Positions 24,732 to 45,948 of a stretch of DNA of 64,000 nucleotides are shown one piece after another; position 1 is the first letter of the stretch, and the number at the start of each line of letters is the position of its first letter. The stretch lies in contig CALVFJ010000008.1 in the NCBI GenBank assembly GCA_944326795.1, forward strand, positions 1 to 64,000. The letters run 5' to 3'. The DNA comes from an uncultured Erysipelotrichaceae bacterium (GTDB lineage Bacteria > Bacillota_I > Bacilli_A > Erysipelotrichales > Erysipelotrichaceae). The notes under the pieces are model-generated. The model was given only the letters and a program-made list of their open reading frames with translations. It did not search any database and was not told where the DNA came from. The position numbers were made by a program, and so were the translations under genes.

Positions 24732-24761
24732 TTAAAATTTACTTTTTAAGCAAGATATAAT
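24732..24761 (+). promoter_or_regulatory. Possible promoter of the second DPM1-like gene
   Basis: A perfect TATAAT (24756-24761) lies 27 bases before the ATG at 24789, with a weak TTAAAA-like -35 element about 18 bases upstream. The -10 box is clear, the -35 is not. Confidence 0.4.
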
Positions 24762-24788
24762 AAAATATCAAAGATACGGAGGAAGAAT

Positions 24789-25745
24789 ATGAGCTTGTTA
24801 TCGATCGTTGTTCCATGTTATAACGAGCAGGAAACAGTTTCGTTATTCTTTGATGCCACTAGCAAGGTATTATCATCGATGGATATGAATTATGAAATAA
24901 TTTATGTTAATGATGGTTCAAAAGATAATACCTTAAATGAATGCATCAAGTTATATGAAAAACATCCTGATGTCGTAAGAGTAATTGATTTTAGTCGTAA
25001 TTTTGGTAAAGAGGGAGCTTTGCTAGCTGGGCTAGAGCATGCAAAAGGTGATTATGTTACAGTAATGGACGCAGATCTACAAGATCCTCCTGAGTATTTA
25101 CCAATTATGTTTGAACAAATATCTAAAAGCTATGATATCGTTGGAACTAGAAGAGTTTCACGCAAAGGAGAGCCACCTATCAGATCTTTTTTTGCTAGGC
25201 AATTTTACAAATTAATTAATCGATTTACTGAAGTAGAAATTGTGGATGGAGCAAGAGATTTTAGACTTATGACCAGACAAGTAGTAGATTCTATTTTAAA
25301 ACTGCGTGAATATCATCGCTTTTCTAAAGGTTTATTTGTGTGGGTAGGATATAAAACAAAATATTTAGAATATGAAAATGTAGAAAGAGTTGCTGGGGAA
25401 ACTAGTTGGAGTTTTTGGGGCTTGCTGAAATATGCAATTGAAGGAATTATTGCCTTTACCGTTGCTCCTTTAAGAATGGCTACATTTATGGGAATACTGA
25501 TATCATTTATTGCTTTTTGTAGCTTAATTTTTGTTGTTGGCAGAGCTCTAATATTCAGTGATCCTGTTAGTGGTTGGCCTAGCATGGTTTCTATTATGCT
25601 GTTTTTAGGAGGTATTCAACTATTGGCTTTAGGTATAATTGGTGAATATTTATCTAAAACTTATATGGAAGTAAAAAAACGGCCAAACTATATTATCAAG
25701 AAAATATATGAGAACGGAGGAGATTATGAGCAGACAAACAAATAA
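24789..25745 (+). CDS. DPM1-like family 2 glycosyltransferase with two C-terminal helices
   Basis: A 318-aa protein with VVPCYNEQ, NDGSKDNT, the canonical DADLQDPP metal motif and two C-terminal membrane helices (about 235-260 and 270-295). It belongs to the bactoprenol glucosyltransferase group and is a more canonical relative of the protein at 4179. ACGGAGGA precedes the ATG. A second carrier-loading GT2 implies a second lipid-linked sugar donor, but only one GtrA flippase gene is present in the window. Its last 20 bases overlap the next gene's start. Confidence 0.87.
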   Translation: MSLLSIVVPCYNEQETVSLFFDATSKVLSSMDMNYEIIYVNDGSKDNTLNECIKLYEKHPDVVRVIDFSRNFGKEGALLAGLEHAKGDYVTVMDADLQDPPEYLPIMFEQISKSYDIVGTRRVSRKGEPPIRSFFARQFYKLINRFTEVEIVDGARDFRLMTRQVVDSILKLREYHRFSKGLFVWVGYKTKYLEYENVERVAGETSWSFWGLLKYAIEGIIAFTVAPLRMATFMGILISFIAFCSLIFVVGRALIFSDPVSGWPSMVSIMLFLGGIQLLALGIIGEYLSKTYMEVKKRPNYIIKKIYENGGDYEQTNK

Positions 25746-26439
25746 ATCACAACTTACCTCAGAAGAAAAAGCAAAAAGAAGAAGAATTAAAAAGGCAAAT
25801 AATAATATTATATTAAGCATGATAGTATTATCGTTAGTTGTTATTGGCTTTTTTTCTTTTAATATAGCAAATATTTCATTGAAACATTCAAGTTCATCTG
25901 GTGACACTTTATTGGTTGAGTCAGGTAATAAACTATCTAATGATTTATATGAAATAGGCAATAATCCAACTGACATCCAAAAAGAATACTTTAATGAATT
26001 GACAAATGCTTTAGAAGATGATGACGATATGAAAGCAGTTGAATATTTGGTGAAGTCGTTTGTTGCTGATTGCTTTACATGGACCAATAAAGATGGTAAT
26101 TATGAAGTTGGCGGGCTACAATATCTATATGGGCCTAAATATACGATGTTTCAGACACAAATGCGCTATGAATTTTATGCTGATTTAGATTTATATATTT
26201 CTCAATTTGGTCGTGAAAATTTACTTGAAGTTGACAAGGTCGAAACGCCGATAGTAGATAGAGCTGCAGATTATGTAACAGATGGTGTATCTTATAGTGC
26301 ATATTATATCGAAGCTACATGGACATATAAACCATCTTCAAAAATTGATGTAGATGAGTTTCAAAAACAAGGGTATTTTACAATTATCGATCATGATGGA
26401 AGATATGAGATCGTATCCATTTACGATAACTGGGATTAG
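25726..26439 (+). CDS. Single-pass membrane protein of unknown function beside LCP
   Basis: A 237-aa protein with a basic cytoplasmic head, a membrane helix at about residues 30-50, and an extracytoplasmic domain of about 185 residues with a Tyr/Trp-rich C-terminal half (ASYYIEATWTYKP-like region ending in IVSIYDNWD). The fold may be NTF2-like, but I do not recognise a family. CGGAGGAG precedes the ATG at 25726. It lies 11 bases upstream of the LCP gene, so a partner role in polymer attachment is the natural inference. Confidence 0.6.
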   Translation: MSRQTNKSQLTSEEKAKRRRIKKANNNIILSMIVLSLVVIGFFSFNIANISLKHSSSSGDTLLVESGNKLSNDLYEIGNNPTDIQKEYFNELTNALEDDDDMKAVEYLVKSFVADCFTWTNKDGNYEVGGLQYLYGPKYTMFQTQMRYEFYADLDLYISQFGRENLLEVDKVETPIVDRAADYVTDGVSYSAYYIEATWTYKPSSKIDVDEFQKQGYFTIIDHDGRYEIVSIYDNWD

Positions 26440-26450
26440 GAGGTGAAAAA

Positions 26451-29258
26451 ATGCAGAGTAAAAAAACATCTTCTAGAAAATTTAGTTCAAATATGGTTCC
26501 GTATAATATTTTAATTGCAGTTTTAATTACATTGGTAGATTTTGGAATCATTTTTTTGATGTATTCATTAACACAGTTTTCTAACTTTAGTAAATTAATT
26601 TTTATTTTGATTAATATTTTTGTACTTTTAGTTTTATTGATGATTAATATTTTATTTATTATAAGTATAAAAAGCCGAAAGAAAAGTATTTTCAATACAA
26701 CAATAATATTAGTTGTGATATTTGCTATGATATCTGGTTATGGAACATATGCTTCGCTTAAATTAAATAAAAGTGTAGGCAAAATTGTTACAACAGGGGA
26801 ACAACAGGAAGTAGTTGAAGCTGCCGTTGTAGCTAAAAAAGACATTACTGCAGTTAGTGAACTTGATGGTAAAACTGTAGGTATTATGCCTGGGGCAACA
26901 TATACATCTATAGGGCAGTCTAATATTGATAATGCAGTAACTAGTGTAGATTATATGGAATATACTGATTTAAACTCTCTTTTTACAGCCTTGATTGCTG
27001 ATGAAATAGATGCTGCTATCATGCCAAGTAACTACTCTGGAATTTTTGAAGTCGTTGCTGGCTATGAGGAAGCATTGGAAAGCGTTGCAACAGTTGATGT
27101 ATATAGTGATACTATTTCTGTATCAGTAGATAAATCAGAAAAAGATATTACATCTGAACCAATTTCTATTCTTGTGCTTGGCGTAGATGAGGGTAGATCA
27201 GATGCAAATATGTTGGTGACCTTTAATCCGATCAGTTTAACTATTACAATGACTTCTATAGCTAGAGATAGTTATGTTCCTATTGCTTGCTACGCAGGAC
27301 AAGCAAGTGATAAATTAGGACATGCTAGAGTCCAAGGAATTCAATGTACCATAGATACTATTGAAGATTTGCTTGATATTGAAATCGATTATTATTTTGA
27401 AAGCAATTTCCAGGGCGTAGTAGATATCGTAGATGCACTAGGAGGTATTGTAATAAATAACCCTTATGAATTTACCGGTCAGAATTCATCTGATGAACGT
27501 GGCCATTATACGGTTTGGATACCTGCGGGAGAAAATGTGCCAGTAAATGGTGAACAAGCATTAGCTTTCGCGCGAGAAAGACATTTATATGCAACTGGTG
27601 ATTTCCAACGGCAAGCAAATCAGCAACAAGTTGTTACATCTATTTTGACAACAGCAATGCGTACCCGTGATTTAAATAAATTGCTAAATGTTTTGGATGC
27701 CGCAGGTGATAATATAACTACTAATATTACGGTAGATCAATTCATTGACTTATTCAATTATGTAATGAAAAAAACATCAAGGATTTATAACCAAGAAAAT
27801 ATTGAAAGTGTATTTAATATCGTTGGATCGAGGGTTACAGGATATAATTCAAGCGTTTGGTCAGAATCTGCACAATTAGCATTATCGATTGTGCGCCCGT
27901 ATGAAGGATCAATCCAAGATAATCATGATGCGATTATAAGAAATTTAAATTTAGATAGTGAAATAACAGCTCCTAAATCATTTAAATGGGATGCTAACTG
28001 GGAATTCTATGCCCCAACAATTTCTAATGAAACTTATTCAGAACAGATCATTCAATCTGAGACACCACAGTCTTACTGGTGTACAACAACTGGCGGAACA
28101 TGGAATGGATCATCATGCGCTTGCCCAGCTGGTGAATTTGTTGAAAATAAGGGATGTGTACAAGATAGCGCATCAAACTATGCTGATGTAACTTCTTGTC
28201 AAGGCGCAGGCTTTATCTGGGATGAGTCAACAAATGCTTGTGTAACGACATGCCCTGCAGGAACGACATCTGATGGCAAGTATTGTCATGCTATTAAGGC
28301 AGATCCTAGCACATATGCTAGCCAAGGCGAATGTATCACAGCAGGATATAAATGGAACGAAAACATGTGTGTAGCTTCTTGCCCAACAGGAACCGATGAT
28401 AATGATGGCGATGGTGTATGTAAAGCAACATCAAATGATTCTGCGACTAAGTATACTTTGACTGTTAGATATGCAATGAGTGATGGCAGCAAAGCACCAG
28501 AAACATATACGGGAAGTTATGCCGAAGGTGAAAGTTATTCGGTAAATAGTCCAAGTGTTTCTGGATATACACCTGATGTAGCAACAGTAAGTGGAACAAT
28601 GGGAACAAGTAATATTGATGTTACGGTTACTTACAAGAAAAATGAATCAACACCAGATCCTAATGAAACATTATGTAAAAATAGTGGAGGAACATGGAAT
28701 AATGGTGCATGTTCATGTCCAAACGGACAAACATGGGATAACACAAATGGCTGTATCGTGAAAGAAACCGAAGAACAGAAATGTAAAAATAATGGCGGTG
28801 AATGGATAAATGGTCAGTGTGTGTATAAGTCAGAAGAACAAAAAGCATGTGAGACGCAAGGAGGTACATGGAGCAATAATACATGTACATGTCCAAACGG
28901 TGGCGTTTGGAATTCAGGAACAAAAGCTTGTGAGGCAGCAAAGACCGAAGAACAGTTATGCGCTGAAAAAGGTGGATATTGGTATAATGGATCATGTTTA
29001 ACTGACCAAAATCAAATAACTTGCATAAAAGGTGGAGGTGTATGGGCTAATTCAGCATGTAGCTGTAGTGATCCAAACTCTACTTGGGATGGAAGTGCTT
29101 GTGTTCCAAAGCAACCAGAGGGTAATACAGGAGAAAGCGGAGGAGATGGTAATGGAAATCAGCCAACTCTATCAACTTATTCGCAAAATTTATTAGAAAA
29201 TAATAAATTAAGTTTGATTGAATATATCTTTAAGAACCTAACATTCATAAATAAATAA
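26451..29258 (+). CDS. Very large LytR-CpsA-Psr (LCP) protein with solute-binding-like, MucBP-like and Cys-rich regions
   Basis: A 935-aa protein with three N-terminal membrane segments. A region at about 125-230 (LDGKTVGIMPGATYTSIGQ) looks like one lobe of a periplasmic solute-binding domain. The LCP catalytic domain follows at about 238-400 (ILVLGVDEGRSDANML; SIARDSYV; GEQALAFARERH). After residue 530 come eight Cys-rich modules of the form C-x3-GG-x-W-x(4-6)-C-x-CP-x-G, interrupted by a MucBP-like repeat at about 666-730. LCP enzymes attach undecaprenyl-linked wall polymers to peptidoglycan. The tail is far longer than the usual LCP C terminus. It has no LPxTG signal. A terminator follows. 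Confidence 0.85.
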   Translation: MQSKKTSSRKFSSNMVPYNILIAVLITLVDFGIIFLMYSLTQFSNFSKLIFILINIFVLLVLLMINILFIISIKSRKKSIFNTTIILVVIFAMISGYGTYASLKLNKSVGKIVTTGEQQEVVEAAVVAKKDITAVSELDGKTVGIMPGATYTSIGQSNIDNAVTSVDYMEYTDLNSLFTALIADEIDAAIMPSNYSGIFEVVAGYEEALESVATVDVYSDTISVSVDKSEKDITSEPISILVLGVDEGRSDANMLVTFNPISLTITMTSIARDSYVPIACYAGQASDKLGHARVQGIQCTIDTIEDLLDIEIDYYFESNFQGVVDIVDALGGIVINNPYEFTGQNSSDERGHYTVWIPAGENVPVNGEQALAFARERHLYATGDFQRQANQQQVVTSILTTAMRTRDLNKLLNVLDAAGDNITTNITVDQFIDLFNYVMKKTSRIYNQENIESVFNIVGSRVTGYNSSVWSESAQLALSIVRPYEGSIQDNHDAIIRNLNLDSEITAPKSFKWDANWEFYAPTISNETYSEQIIQSETPQSYWCTTTGGTWNGSSCACPAGEFVENKGCVQDSASNYADVTSCQGAGFIWDESTNACVTTCPAGTTSDGKYCHAIKADPSTYASQGECITAGYKWNENMCVASCPTGTDDNDGDGVCKATSNDSATKYTLTVRYAMSDGSKAPETYTGSYAEGESYSVNSPSVSGYTPDVATVSGTMGTSNIDVTVTYKKNESTPDPNETLCKNSGGTWNNGACSCPNGQTWDNTNGCIVKETEEQKCKNNGGEWINGQCVYKSEEQKACETQGGTWSNNTCTCPNGGVWNSGTKACEAAKTEEQLCAEKGGYWYNGSCLTDQNQITCIKGGGVWANSACSCSDPNSTWDGSACVPKQPEGNTGESGGDGNGNQPTLSTYSQNLLENNKLSLIEYIFKNLTFINK
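28071..29130 (+). repeat. Cys-rich module repeat array within the LCP gene
   Basis: Eight imperfect modules are encoded here. Most contain Gly-Gly, one Trp and two to four Cys in fixed order, for example CKNSGGTWNNGACSCPNG and CETQGGTWSNNTCTCPNG. Three modules precede and five follow the MucBP-like repeat. They look like products of internal duplication. Confidence 0.8.
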
Positions 29259-29264
29259 GAAAAG

Positions 29265-29306
29265 GCTGTTTTACGCATCTAAAGATGTGTAAACAGCTTT
29301 TTTATG
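29265..29306 (+). terminator. Rho-independent terminator after the LCP gene
   Basis: GCTGTTTTACGCATC pairs with GATGTGTAAACAGC around TAAA with one bulge, followed by a T run. Confidence 0.85.
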
Positions 29307-29342: not shown

Positions 29343-30242
29343 ATGAAAGGTATCATTCTTGCAGGAGGAAGCGGGACCAGATTATACCCGATCACAAAAG
29401 TAACAAGCAAACAATTATTACCAATATATGATAAGCCGATGATTTACTACCCATTATCTACATTGATGTTGGCAGGAATAAGAGAAATTTTGATCATTAG
29501 TACGCCACATGATCTGCCAAATTTTGAACGGTTATTGGGAGATGGCAGTCAGTTTGGGGTAAGCTTTTCTTATAAGGTGCAAGAACAGCCAAATGGTTTG
29601 GCTCAAGCTTTTGTCATTGGAGAGGAATTCATTGGCGATGATGATGTATGTTTGGTGCTAGGTGATAATATCTTCTATGGACATAAATTTGGTACGACCT
29701 TGCGTAAGGCTGCTAATAATAAAGGACGAGCAACCGTGTTTGGTATTCACGTAAATGATCCAGAACGTTTTGGGGTCGTTGAGTTTGATGGTAGCGGTAA
29801 AGTGCTATCATTGGAAGAAAAGCCTTCGTATCCGCGTAGTAATTATGCAGTAGTTGGCTTATATTTCTATGATAATCGGGTGGTGGAATATGCTAAACAG
29901 CTTAAACCAAGCGCAAGAGGTGAGTATGAGATTACCGATCTAAATAAGATCTATTTAGCAAATGGCGAACTAGATTGTGAATTACTAGGACGTGGTTTTA
30001 CTTGGTTAGATACAGGAACGGTTGAATCTTTGGCACAGGCTAGCAATTATGTAAAGATCATTGAAGATGTCCAAGGTATCAAGATCAGTGTTCCGGAAGA
30101 AATTGCTTATTATAATAAATGGATAAATGAAGAAGAAATGCTGAAAGCAGCCGAAAGCTATGGCAAGAGCCCTTATGGGGAACATTTACGCAGGGTTGTC
30201 AGCGGTGCAGTACAGACAACATATAACAAAGGTGGTAAATAG
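29343..30242 (+). CDS. rmlA: Glucose-1-phosphate thymidylyltransferase
   Basis: A 299-aa enzyme that makes dTDP-glucose from dTTP and glucose-1-phosphate in the cytoplasm. The signature [17 protein letters not shown] is at residues 8-24, with the following [18 protein letters not shown] region, LGDN and the EEKP stretch all intact and the length normal for the family. It opens a four-gene precursor operon (rmlA, SDR, rmlB, glf) after a terminator. TACAAT, a possible -10 box, lies near 29308. Codon use returns here to the ATC-rich style. Confidence 0.95.
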
Positions 30243-31129
30243 TGAAGGTAATATTTATAGGTTGTGGATATTTAGGATATAATTTAAGCAAAGGATTATT
30301 AAATAAATATGATGTATCGATCTTAGGTATCGAAAGTCCTTATGTCGAGCATTCACCTTGGTTTAGATATGCTGATGTATTTGATATGGGAACAATGATC
30401 AATCAAGATCTGCAGGATGCTATCGTTATTGATACAGTAAGCTTGGTAGGAAATAGGACAACTAGCGATGATCCAGAACGCTTGTTGCGTAATATAAAAT
30501 ATAAATATCAAGGCTTGTTAGATGTTTTAAAAGCTAAAGGGGTCAAGCGTTATATCTTTTTTAGCAGTGGGGGAACGATCTATGGCGATAGCGCAGAACC
30601 AATCAAAGAAGATCATGTTTTGAACCCTAAAAGCTTATATGGCAAAAGCAAGATGATGCTAGAAGAGTTGATCAAAGCAAGCGGAATTGATTATTTGATC
30701 TTAAGACCTTCTAATCCTTTTGGTGGTTTTCAAGTAACTAATGGTCAAGGGGTCATTCCAATCTTGATCAATAAGGCATTAGATCAAGAAGCATTTGATA
30801 TGTATGTTGAAAAAGACAGCGTTAGAGATTATTTTTATATCGATGATTTCGTTGATATCTTGGATAAACTTATTGCCAAAGATATTTCTAAAGAAACCCT
30901 GAATGTAGGATCAGGGATTGCCACTTCTTTGCAAGATGTCATCGATTGCGTAGAAAAATGTACTAAGCAAAAGATCATCATCAATGAAGTGGAAAAAGAT
31001 GAAACAGCCGTCAAAAGCATCGTTTTAGATATCAGCAAGCTGAAAAAATTGATAGATCATGAAAATAGCGTTAGTTTAGAAGAAGGAATCAAATTAGAAA
31101 CGGAAAGAATAGAAAGAGGAAGAGAATGA
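30242..31129 (+). CDS. NAD(P)-dependent sugar epimerase/reductase (extended SDR)
   Basis: A 295-aa extended short-chain dehydrogenase. GCGYLG at residues 7-12 binds the nucleotide, FSSGGTIYG and the YGKSK catalytic Tyr-Lys pair are present, and RPSNPFGG follows. The GTG start overlaps the rmlA stop and the TGA overlaps the rmlB ATG. Its place between rmlA and rmlB suggests it reduces or epimerises the 4-keto-6-deoxy product of RmlB, for example to dTDP-fucose. It is not a typical RmlD, and rmlC is absent from the window. The exact product is unknown. Confidence 0.75.
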   Translation: MKVIFIGCGYLGYNLSKGLLNKYDVSILGIESPYVEHSPWFRYADVFDMGTMINQDLQDAIVIDTVSLVGNRTTSDDPERLLRNIKYKYQGLLDVLKAKGVKRYIFFSSGGTIYGDSAEPIKEDHVLNPKSLYGKSKMMLEELIKASGIDYLILRPSNPFGGFQVTNGQGVIPILINKALDQEAFDMYVEKDSVRDYFYIDDFVDILDKLIAKDISKETLNVGSGIATSLQDVIDCVEKCTKQKIIINEVEKDETAVKSIVLDISKLKKLIDHENSVSLEEGIKLETERIERGRE

Positions 31130-32148
31130 AGATATTAGTAACAGGTGGTGCCGGTTTTATCGGCGGAAATTTTGCTCACTATATGACCAATACCTATCCT
31201 GAAGATCAGATCGTGGTGCTGGATGCATTAACATATGCCGGTAACTTGGAGACATTGGAACCAATCATGGATAAACCAAATTTCAAGTTTATCAAAGGAG
31301 ATATTCGTGATAGGTCTTTTATCGATGATTTATTTGCTAAGGAAAAATTTGATATCGTGGTTAATTTTGCTGCTGAGAGCCATGTTGATCGCAGTATTGA
31401 AAACCCTGGCCTTTTTGTGGAAACCAATGTCATGGGCGTACAAGTATTGTTGGATGCGTCACTTAAATATGGCGTGAAACGTTATCATCAGGTGTCTACG
31501 GATGAGGTATATGGTGATTTGCCGCTTGATCGAAAGGATCTGATGTTTACTGAAGAAACACCTTTGCATACTTCTAGTCCTTATAGTGCTTCTAAAGCTA
31601 GTGCTGATTTACTGGTATTGGCATATCATCGAACCTTTAAATTGCCAGTAACTATCAGCCGTTGTTCCAACAACTATGGACCATACCATTTTCCTGAAAA
31701 GCTTATTCCTTTGATGATCAGCCGCGCTTTGGCTGATGAAAGCTTGCCGGTATATGGCAAAGGTGAGAATGTTCGCGATTGGCTGCATGTGCATGATCAT
31801 TGCACCGCTATCGATCTAGTTATCAGAAAAGGCCGTGAAGGTGAAGTATATAATATTGGTGGTCATAACGAAAGAACTAATTTAGAGGTCGTTAAGACCA
31901 TCTTAAAACAATTAGGTAAACCGGAAAGCTTGATCCATTTTGTTACTGATCGTCCAGGTCATGATCTGCGTTATGCAATCGATCCAACAAAGATCGAGAA
32001 TGAATTAGGCTGGAAGCCAGTTTATAATTTTGATACTGGCATCAAGCAAACGATCGAATGGTATCTAAATAATAAGACCTGGTGGGAAAACATCATCAGT
32101 GGCGAATATCAGGAATACTATGCCAAGATGTATAAAGATCGTCAATAA
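31126..32148 (+). CDS. rmlB: dTDP-glucose 4,6-dehydratase
   Basis: A 340-aa extended SDR with GGAGFIGGNF at 7-16, the TDEVYGDL stretch and YSASKASAD with the catalytic Tyr and Lys. The length and motifs are those of RmlB, which converts dTDP-glucose to dTDP-4-keto-6-deoxyglucose. It overlaps the SDR gene by four bases and is followed within 15 bases by glf. Confidence 0.95.
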   Translation: MKILVTGGAGFIGGNFAHYMTNTYPEDQIVVLDALTYAGNLETLEPIMDKPNFKFIKGDIRDRSFIDDLFAKEKFDIVVNFAAESHVDRSIENPGLFVETNVMGVQVLLDASLKYGVKRYHQVSTDEVYGDLPLDRKDLMFTEETPLHTSSPYSASKASADLLVLAYHRTFKLPVTISRCSNNYGPYHFPEKLIPLMISRALADESLPVYGKGENVRDWLHVHDHCTAIDLVIRKGREGEVYNIGGHNERTNLEVVKTILKQLGKPESLIHFVTDRPGHDLRYAIDPTKIENELGWKPVYNFDTGIKQTIEWYLNNKTWWENIISGEYQEYYAKMYKDRQ

Positions 32149-32162
32149 GGAGGAAGCAAGAT

Positions 32163-33320
32163 ATGAGTTATGATGTAATTGTCGTAGGAGCTGGATTTGC
32201 AGGAAGCGTTATTGCGCAAAAGTTTACAGCTGATGGCAAAAAAGTCTTGGTCATCGAATCAAGAAAACATATCGGTGGTAACATGTATGACTATATTGAT
32301 GAAAATGGAGTCAATCGTCATCAATATGGGCCACATATCTTCCATACCAACAGCAAGCGGGTCGTTGATTATCTAAGCAATTTTACCCAATGGTATCCTT
32401 ATGTGCATCGGGTATTAGGTAATGTCAATGGGCATATCGTACCGATTCCTTTTAACTTAAGATCGATTGAAGAATCATTCGAGGCTGATAAGGCAGAAAG
32501 ATTGAAAAAAGTCTTGGTTGATAGCTATGGCATGGATAAGAAAGTTCCTATCTTGCAATTACGGCAAAATAAGGATCCTAATGTCGTAGAATTAGCTAAT
32601 TATATCTATGAATATGTTTTTAAATACTATACGATGAAGCAATGGGGGCTAACGGTAGAACAGATCGATCCTGAAGTAACCAATCGAGTACCGGTAAATG
32701 TTAGCTATGATGATCGCTATTTTGCTGATGAATATCAGATCATGCCTAAGGAAGGCTATACTAAGATCTTTGAAAAGATGCTTTCTGGGGTTGAGGTATG
32801 GTTGGATACCAAGGCAAATGATGTCTTACGTGTAGATACTGACAATAAGAAGATCTATTTTAAAGATGAAGAATTTAAGGGTATCGTCGTTTATACCGGT
32901 GCCGTTGATGAGCTGTTGGATTATCGTTTGGGAGAATTGCCATATCGTTCTTTGCGATTTGAAATTGAAACACATGATGGTCAGTACCAACAAGCAACAA
33001 CGATCAATTATCCTACGCCGCATAGTCAAAATGCCTTTACAAGAATTACGGAATATAAATTGATGATGGAAAATTATCCACAGGATAAGACAACGATCGC
33101 TATCGAATATCCATTGGCTTATGATCGTAAGGCTTATGAAGGAAATATTCCTTACTATCCGATCTTTACGTTGGATAATCAGGCTAAATATGAACGCTAT
33201 TGTGATTTGCTAAATGGTATCGATAATTTATATCTTTTAGGACGCTTGGCAGAATATAAGTATTACAATATGGATGCCATCGTTGATAAAGCTTTAGATT
33301 TATATGAAAATATTAAATAA
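32163..33320 (+). CDS. glf: UDP-galactopyranose mutase
   Basis: A 385-aa flavoenzyme with GAGFAGSVIAQ (FAD site), the GGNMYDY and HQYGPHIFHT stretches and the C-terminal LAEYKYYNMD motif of Glf. It converts UDP-galactopyranose to UDP-galactofuranose, so the surface polymer probably contains galactofuranose. GGAGGAAG precedes the ATG. It is the last gene of the precursor operon, and a perfect 12-bp terminator follows. Confidence 0.96.
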   Translation: MSYDVIVVGAGFAGSVIAQKFTADGKKVLVIESRKHIGGNMYDYIDENGVNRHQYGPHIFHTNSKRVVDYLSNFTQWYPYVHRVLGNVNGHIVPIPFNLRSIEESFEADKAERLKKVLVDSYGMDKKVPILQLRQNKDPNVVELANYIYEYVFKYYTMKQWGLTVEQIDPEVTNRVPVNVSYDDRYFADEYQIMPKEGYTKIFEKMLSGVEVWLDTKANDVLRVDTDNKKIYFKDEEFKGIVVYTGAVDELLDYRLGELPYRSLRFEIETHDGQYQQATTINYPTPHSQNAFTRITEYKLMMENYPQDKTTIAIEYPLAYDRKAYEGNIPYYPIFTLDNQAKYERYCDLLNGIDNLYLLGRLAEYKYYNMDAIVDKALDLYENIK

Positions 33321-44818: not shown

Positions 44819-44883
44819 AAGCATATGTTAAGTAAGTAAGTAATATGTTATAATATTTAAGGTTTAGAAAGGTGGTTCAAGAA

Positions 44884-45948
44884 ATGAATTTAGTTGAAGG
44901 CGCATTTCCGTTTTTTGTCCTGCCTTTTATTTTAAGCTTGGTCTTGGTCCCGATATGTAAGAAGATCGGTTTTAGCTTGGGGGTCTATGCTCAAGAAAAT
45001 AATCGTACCGTTCATCATGGCAAGATCGTTAGGATGGGCGGGGTCGCTGTTTTTGTGGCTTTTATGATCGCGATGGCGGTCTTTGTCAAAGCCGATACGA
45101 CCTTGAATGCGATCTTGATCGGCGGCGCGGTGGTCTTTGCTGGGGGCATCATTGATGATATCTATAATTTAAAACCGTTATATAAATTGTTGTTTGAAAT
45201 TGCAGGAGCCTTGATTGCTTTGATCGGCGGTCAGCTTTATATTCAGACGTTTTATCTGCCTTTTGGTTTGGAATTCAACAATTTGATCTTTAACTTTTTG
45301 GTTTCCTTTGTTTGGATCGTTGGTATTACCAATGCGATCAATCTGATCGATGGTTTGGATGGCTTATCGAGCGGTATTAGTTTTATCGTTTGCTGTGTCA
45401 TCGGCTTGTTGGGCTTTTTCTTAGGCCGAAGAGATATTTGTATCTTAGCTTTGATCTTAGCTGGATCGATCTTGGGCTTTTTACCGTATAATTTTCATCC
45501 GGCTTCGATCTTTTTGGGGGATTGCGGGGCTTTGTTCATTGGCTACATGTTGGCTTGTGTCTCGCTGCTTGGCTTTAAGACCGCGGCAGTAGTAACTTTG
45601 GCCTTGCCGATCTTGATGATGTTCATACCGATCAGCGATACGCTTTTAGCAATCATTAGAAGAAAGCTGAAAGGTCAAAAGATCTCGGAGGCTGATAGAG
45701 GGCATCTACATCATACCTTGATGTTCAAGGTAGGGTTAGGGCATCGCAATACGGTCATTGCCTTGTATATCGTTACCGCCTTATTTGGCTTAAGCGCATT
45801 GGTGATCTTCTTTAACGAGGATCTAGGCTTGATCTTGGTGGTGATCTTGCTGATAGCATTTGAGATCTTTATTGAAGCTACTGGCATGGTCAATGAAAAA
45901 TTCCATCCGGTCATCAGTACTTTCAAGAAAATATTTAAACGCAAATAG
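44884..45948 (+). CDS. tagO: Undecaprenyl-phosphate N-acetylglucosaminyl-1-phosphate transferase
   Basis: A 354-aa polytopic enzyme of the MraY/WecA family with the metal-binding DDIYNL, the NAINLIDGLDGL signature, the FLGDCGALFIG stretch and RGHLHHTL. It starts teichoic acid or other wall-glycan synthesis by putting GlcNAc-1-P on undecaprenyl phosphate. It may therefore supply the lipid anchor for the polymer made by the left half of the window. The frame is open from 44872, but GAAAGGTGG supports the ATG at 44884. TATAAT lies upstream near 44850. Confidence 0.92.
   Translation: MNLVEGAFPFFVLPFILSLVLVPICKKIGFSLGVYAQENNRTVHHGKIVRMGGVAVFVAFMIAMAVFVKADTTLNAILIGGAVVFAGGIIDDIYNLKPLYKLLFEIAGALIALIGGQLYIQTFYLPFGLEFNNLIFNFLVSFVWIVGITNAINLIDGLDGLSSGISFIVCCVIGLLGFFLGRRDICILALILAGSILGFLPYNFHPASIFLGDCGALFIGYMLACVSLLGFKTAAVVTLALPILMMFIPISDTLLAIIRRKLKGQKISEADRGHLHHTLMFKVGLGHRNTVIALYIVTALFGLSALVIFFNEDLGLILVVILLIAFEIFIEATGMVNEKFHPVISTFKKIFKRK

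Follow-up and report, generated by a model that had tools for sequence, protein, structure and literature searches.

A Cps2A-type LCP protein with a lineage-bound cysteine-rich tail and an undescribed partner gene in an uncultured Erysipelotrichaceae bacterium

Introduction

One gene of the window (the whole 64,000-nucleotide stretch of Erysipelotrichaceae DNA analysed here) encodes an LCP protein that carries an extra lobe in front of its catalytic domain and a long Cys-rich tail behind it. One important question is which of these parts are new and what they may do for the enzyme. The ordinary parts of the protein are its enzyme class and its lobe, whereas the unusual part is a set of Cys modules bound to the lineage. 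The kind of enzyme is known; the partner encoded just upstream, hereafter named p243, is undescribed and is the element most worth following. No paper on an LCP protein with an NTF2-like domain or with a Cys-rich tail was found in the literature search.

Results and Discussion

The LCP gene and its cluster

The coordinates of all features are given in Table 1. The ATG of the LCP gene follows an AGGAGG sequence and opens 935 codons without internal stops. The architecture described in the initial annotation (an LCP protein with an extra lobe, a MucBP repeat and eight Cys modules) was found in this single intact ORF, and the approximately 400 Cys-rich residues placed after the catalytic domain correspond to 395 amino acids from residue 541. 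In Pfam, the LCP domain (PF03816) was matched at residues 249–401 (7e-37; 127.3 bits, curated cut-off 24.6) and MucBP at residues 669–729 (5e-5; 24.4 bits, cut-off 23), and a weak NMT1 match of the solute-binding protein (SBP) type at residues 118–194 stayed under its cut-off. The AlphaFold model has a mean pLDDT of 74, with values mostly of 85–94 across the lobe and the LCP domain, moderate values in the tail (about 72–86 for residues 740–850) and values under 50 for residues 539–587. The protein contains 30 Cys, two in the LCP domain (C280 and C299) and 28 in the tail.

Table 1. Positions of the features in the window
Feature	Position	Strand	Remarks
GT2 glycosyltransferase (GtrB/ArnC-like)	24789..25745	+	often directly upstream of the p243-LCP pair
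Block exchanged relative to congener G001	24984..29120	+	borders approximate; DNA identity
p243	25708..26439	+	one TM helix and extracytoplasmic domain; start possibly 25726; adjoins tailed LCPs throughout the lineage
LCP glycopolymer transferase, Cps2A architecture	26451..29258	+	935 aa; variable C-terminal tail
N-terminal membrane region	26496..26786	+	helices 16-41, 48-75, 78-112 (AF2 secondary structure); NCBIfam Cps2A model aligned from residue 15
Accessory lobe	26811..27122	+	residues 121-224; equivalent of Cps2A accessory domain; single SBP lobe fold
LCP catalytic domain	27153..27959	+	residues 235-503
Cys module 1	28080..28157	+	residues 544-569; 4 Cys
Cys module 2	28197..28286	+	residues 583-612; 4 Cys
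Cys module 3	28332..28421	+	residues 628-657; 4 Cys
MucBP repeat	28455..28637	+	residues 669-729; Pfam; MUB type 2 repeat among Foldseek hits
Cys module 4	28674..28754	+	residues 742-768; 4 Cys
Cys module 5 (half)	28782..28820	+	residues 778-790; 2 Cys
Cys module 6	28848..28931	+	residues 800-827; 4 Cys
Cys module 7 (half)	28959..28997	+	residues 837-849; 2 Cys
Cys module 8	29022..29102	+	residues 858-884; 4 Cys
rmlA-like nucleotidyltransferase	29343..30242	+	incl. synteny
rmlB-like dTDP-glucose dehydratase	31126..32148	+	incl. synteny
UDP-galactopyranose mutase (glf)	32163..33320	+	incl. synteny
GT4 (WecA/TagO type) initiating transferase	44872..45948	+	f2 homologue carries a C-terminal p243 domain

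The p243-LCP pair lies between GT2, GT4 and O-antigen-ligase-like genes on one side and rmlA, an epimerase gene, rmlB and glf on the other, and this gene order is conserved in other genera. This setting is consistent with a capsule-like polysaccharide that contains rhamnose and galactofuranose. A hairpin resembling a terminator was located 3' of the LCP gene (29270–29293), although such sites are no commoner than in shuffled sequences. Two extra genes, one of them for a DUF6020 membrane protein, were observed between the LCP gene and rmlA in genome G002 (L080, 10750–12372).

The front half corresponds to Cps2A

The top PDB sequence match of the LCP protein was Cps2A of Streptococcus pneumoniae (Wzg; 2xxp/3tel/4de8), with residues 125–441 aligned to 2xxp by phmmer. 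Residues 120–502 of the model superposed on residues 110–481 of Cps2A (3tel) with a VIA Z of 32.0 and an rmsd of 4.6 over 354 residues. Both proteins, which share 27% identity, consist of a multi-helix membrane anchor followed by the accessory lobe and the LCP domain, and both are located in a capsule cluster. Residues D246, D251, R272, R375, D384, R387 and Q391 align with D234, D246, R267, R362, D371, R374 and Q378 of Cps2A, respectively, the latter being named in the consulted part of a review (PMC7831098), and these catalytic Arg, Asp and Gln residues are mostly invariant or nearly so among 27 relatives. With the catalytic residues conserved, and with a capsule-type cluster for rhamnose and galactofuranose around it, the protein is, on sequence grounds, most likely a CpsA-type glycopolymer ligase. 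It was filed as a Cps2A-like architecture and not as CpsA itself; the score against the CpsA equivalog model of NCBIfam (NF051849) was 167.7 bits, far from the cut-off of 650, so that its specificity may differ.

The full-length alignment of residues 121–503 with pneumococcal Cps2A indicates that the front lobe corresponds to the previously described accessory domain of Cps2A. The initial annotation had taken it for a novel, solute-binding-like lobe that senses a ligand. The SBP resemblance held: the profile of the 27 relatives matched amino-acid SBPs (4ohn, 2e-6) and the lobe superposed on one lobe of phosphite- and amino-acid-binding proteins (PtxB, Z 14.6 over 100 residues). Novelty and ligand sensing were not supported, since the structure is already solved in Cps2A and, of the two lobes and the cleft of an SBP, a single lobe (residues 118–222) was found. 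Hence, a two-lobed ligand trap is absent and a ligand-gated clamshell was rejected. A ligase whose lobe binds a small ligand and thereby controls catalysis would still draw on the likeness to an SBP lobe in sequence and fold, but it would have to do so without a cleft, on a domain that the consulted part of the review describes as accessory and without a known ligand (PMC7831098), and with a lobe that co-varies with p243 (see below); this reading is highly improbable. In the same portion of that review the accessory domain is treated as optional and non-conserved. No published statement of the resemblance of the Cps2A-type accessory domain to an SBP lobe was found in the excerpts of the literature that were consulted.

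Three elements of this locus are not part of Cps2A: the Cys pair of the LCP domain, the tail of about 400 residues and the adjacent p243. The C280/C299 pair is conserved in the lineage, and at least two Cys occur in the domain of 62 of the 67 complete p243-linked LCP proteins. LcpA of Actinomyces oris (5v8c) has a disulfide in its LCP domain, which the consulted parts of PMC6381275 and PMC7831098 present as a trait that sets actinobacterial LCP enzymes apart. In LcpA, according to the same partial sources, C179 pairs with the C-terminal C365, whereas the two conserved Cys of the present protein, which would pair with each other, are 19 residues apart in the segment after the catalytic Arg.

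An obligate neighbour of the tailed LCP genes

The scan of 84,980 species genomes, which was pattern-limited and hence biased to the own subfamily of p243, yielded 78 p243 loci. The LCP gene was the next gene on the same strand in 73 of the 73 loci containing any LCP, a count that includes three cases in which the two genes overlap; six other p243 loci, outside these 73, end at a contig edge. Genome G003 has two different p243-LCP pairs on the short contigs C151 and C198 (L081 and L007), which are either paralogues or a product of mixed strains.

The extracytoplasmic domain of p243 contains the conserved stretch FxADxFTWTNKxGxYxVGG. No convincing family match was obtained for 25 p243 members in Pfam, and nothing was found by sequence in the PDB. 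The AlphaFold model of p243 is confident (pLDDT 88), and its closest structural matches were the NTF2-like domains of DotI, TraM, VirB8 and the N-domain of PBP5fm (MecA_N), with Z values of 8–9.6. The best of these was the periplasmic domain of DotI (VIA Z 9.6 over 128 residues), and the N-domain of PBP5fm reached 8.4; in Foldseek the best E was 0.055, so that no hit fell under 0.001. Because the Foldseek result alone is not significant, an NTF2/VirB8-like fold class is likely for the predicted structure, and not proven. The proteins of the VirB8/TraM/DotI and MecA_N groups share with p243 the placement of an extracytoplasmic domain on a single TM anchor and probably this predicted fold, whereas sequence similarity is not significant and the functions are, as far as known, unrelated.

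Two further forms of p243 were found. In a sister family (f2), p243 matches occurred in 37 genomes and, in 36 of them, within ORFs of 562–633 amino acids. The four f2 loci that were read encode a WecA/TagO-type GT4 that continues into a charged linker and a further TM helix and ends in the p243 domain. Together with the gene pairing described above, this fusion places the p243 domain at the start and at the end of the pathway. The third form is a distant lipoprotein, encoded apart from LCP genes. It adjoins the gene for an unnamed protein of about 400 amino acids (L103, L105, L107), and in two of these three loci an AlaX-like (tRNA_SAD/DHHA1) gene is also beside it.

The distances between p243 proteins track those of the accessory lobe after removal of the GT2 signal, with a partial r of 0.70, compared with 0.40 when the LCP domain takes the place of the lobe (n = 27 loci; the permutation used is not a phylogenetic null). 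For this co-variation the lobe is proposed as the docking site of p243.

The pair is exchanged as a block

Comparison of the window with congener G001 showed a DNA identity of 0.98 at positions 24734–24984, which then drops to about 0.8 and lower and rises above 0.9 again at about 29.12 kb. The flanking genes are 94–98% identical, against 59% for p243, 62% for the N-terminal part of the LCP protein, 83% for the LCP domain and 57% for the tail. Among the five genomes compared, the p243-LCP genes of the window pair with those of G005 (79/77/97%) and those of G001 with those of G002 (88/81/94%), unlike the flanks. This regrouping of alleles indicates that the pair has been exchanged as a unit, a block of approximately 4 kb by sequence comparison, between related species; accelerated evolution on its own would not produce it.

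An origin from mobile elements was rejected. No p243 was found in plasmids, and phage matches, some of them in prophage-like records, were limited to the LCP core alone or to the lobe plus the LCP domain.

p243 might be a neighbour kept by operon conservation, which has no part in LCP action and serves, for instance, the GT2. Its distances follow those of the neighbouring GT2 strongly (r 0.90), and the distant lipoprotein form stands away from LCP genes. This explanation is nonetheless unlikely, as p243 adjoins the LCP gene in all testable loci, is exchanged jointly with it and has its domain fused to a WecA/TagO-type transferase in f2. A partner of the LCP protein is the reading preferred here.

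The Cys modules and the tail

The core C-x3-[GA][GA]-x-[WI] occurs six times in the tail; 20,000 shuffles of the tail gave 0.06 occurrences on average and never more than 2. The longer motif given in the initial annotation, C-x3-GG-x-W-x5-C-x-CP, fits three of the eight modules and fails in the others; more generally, the module reads C-x(11-13)-C-x(1-3)-C-P-x-G-x(6-10)-C. Searches with 20 modules and with the whole protein placed no Pfam family over its cut-off on the Cys modules; the best single-module hits were DUF4215 (0.001) and cEGF (0.0032), and the cut-offs of the EGF-like, furin-like and DUF4215 families were not reached. In the fold comparison of the complete model, the matches were taken up by the LCP part. 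The module profile found nothing below E 0.69 among PDB sequences. At E<=0.001, it detected a single gene in the genome of the window, and matches in 10 of 146 relatives and in 4 of 392 genomes sampled phylum-wide. The modules, as far as these sequence searches reach, are confined to the own genus and a few related genera.

The tail was present and in frame in the four congeners in which the gene was found, with 4–8 modules and with or without MucBP. A misassembled or out-of-frame ORF was therefore rejected, and with it one objection foreseen by the initial annotation, i.e. a tail absent from relatives and out of frame. The variation in module number is real between species, one genome per species having been compared.

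Such LCP proteins are widespread among the 146 related genomes, and their tails vary by genus. Holdemania-like and Anaerorhabdus-like tails have one PASTA-like domain, sometimes with MucBP, and a proline-rich stretch; two or three PASTA domains form the tail in many other genera. PASTA repeats are wall-binding. The PASTA-tailed LCPs of Erysipelotrichaceae (Holdemania, Solobacterium and others) have the orthologous core, the adjacent p243 and a tail at the same position, but PASTA in place of Cys modules. The genus also has a class A PBP with a related tail, in which a PASTA-like stretch is followed at the C-terminal end by one 4-Cys module, CGANATAVNGVCECNSGFEGDPLKGC (G000:C2:78832-81558, L110; G003:C25:14618-17539, L085/L108). 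Tails of this type thus occur on two classes of wall enzyme. In locus L084 (G038:C30), two genes for LCP proteins with Cys, one of 1024 and one of 634 amino acids, lie within 6 kb, and the shorter adjoins rmlA without a p243 of its own.

The adhesin tail suggested in the initial annotation may be considered in this light. The tail could serve chiefly as an adhesin or antigen display, its MucBP and Cys modules binding host mucus or varying under immune or phage pressure, with the LCP part as a mere anchor. One MucBP repeat above the Pfam cut-off is shared with MucBP/MUB surface proteins, the tail is divergent and changes in module number, its block is exchanged between congeners, and the relatives are gut-associated. 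Unlike those surface proteins, however, this one bears a single repeat on an enzyme and has no LPXTG anchor: the combination of LPXTG, a hydrophobic stretch and a charged tail is missing from the C-terminus, which ends NLLENNKLSLIEYIFKNLTFINK and lacks LPXTG. Besides, a catalytically intact LCP protein is an odd anchor, PASTA occupies the same place in most relatives, p243 and the accessory lobe diverge as well as the tail, and a similar tail is carried by the PBP of the genus. A role mainly in adhesion or display is unlikely, and we favour a tail that engages the wall or surface in the service of the enzyme.

Disulfides and redox machinery

Whether the Cys modules are disulfide-bonded or hold metal, a point fairly raised in the initial annotation with its "oxidising exterior or metal", can be approached through the Cys counts. 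The counts of the module-rich tails are all even (28, 28, 28, 16, 16, 14 and 38), which favours disulfides. Half modules retain either C1 and C2 only or C3 and C4 only, and this halving suggests C1–C2 and C3–C4 pairing, with two independent disulfides per module. Evenness as a general rule was rejected: among PASTA-type relatives, 15 of the 50 complete tails with any Cys have an odd number, and the rule is limited to module-rich tails. The CxC spacing and trivial Fer4 matches (E about 0.7) could be taken as signs of zinc or iron-sulfur binding. Against this, there is no His and there are no CxxC knuckles, modules halve by two Cys, the location is extracytoplasmic, Fer4 never rose over its cut-off and the Cys counts are even in every module-rich tail. 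Metal binding is very unlikely, and the sequence pattern points to disulfide-bonded modules.

The initial annotation had proposed a count of thiol-oxidoreductase genes in the genome. Family searches detected no VKOR in 21 genomes and no DsbA or known disulfide oxidase in the genus; the counts for the genome of the window, which is 81% complete, rest on such searches. Each of the six genus genomes gave a DsbD_TM (CcdA-type) match, located in an ORF of 389–395 amino acids; in the genome of the window, CcdA is fused to an AhpC/TSA redoxin domain (G000:C16:8056-9240, L076; 395 amino acids). Of the 28 f1 genomes that have a close p243, 23 contained a CcdA-type protein, as did 23 of the 59 remaining ones (Fisher p 0.0002, hand tally), an association that is weak because the genomes are related.

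Proposed function

We propose, with a probability of about 0.6 for the model as a whole, that the protein is a CpsA/Cps2A-type ligase with p243 docking on its lobe and an exchangeable, wall-engaging tail. The LCP phosphotransferase would take the polysaccharide of the surrounding cluster, which contains rhamnose and probably galactofuranose, off its undecaprenyl-pyrophosphate carrier and attach it to peptidoglycan. p243 would be its dedicated membrane partner, the NTF2-like ectodomain probably docking on the accessory lobe, which would act as a half-SBP scaffold rather than as a ligand-gated clamshell. At the C-terminus, the tail would be an extension that places the enzyme in the wall, of the PASTA type in most relatives and here made of disulfide-stabilised Cys mini-modules and MucBP. 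Only tentatively do we suggest the further step that p243 is an undescribed NTF2-like subunit which, by binding the accessory lobe, couples the WecA/TagO-type first step and LCP ligation in Erysipelotrichales.

The Cys modules represent lineage-restricted, repeated modules of the disulfide type on two wall enzymes, the LCP protein and the class A PBP, in a gut-associated Gram-positive for which VKOR and DsbA were not found in these searches. The role of the accessory lobe in CpsA-type LCP enzymes is unsettled, and p243 makes it a question of binding: as an obligate partner it varies along with the lobe, and its domain is elsewhere fused to the initiating enzyme of the pathway. The p243 domain (25708–26439; loci L099–L102) is also a candidate for a new Pfam entry. 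If p243 does couple the first and last steps, the accessory lobe would gain a function, the LCP-p243 pair would be seen to move between species as a unit along with a disulfide-knotted tail, and an unnamed, lineage-wide protein family would gain a testable place in wall-polymer assembly.
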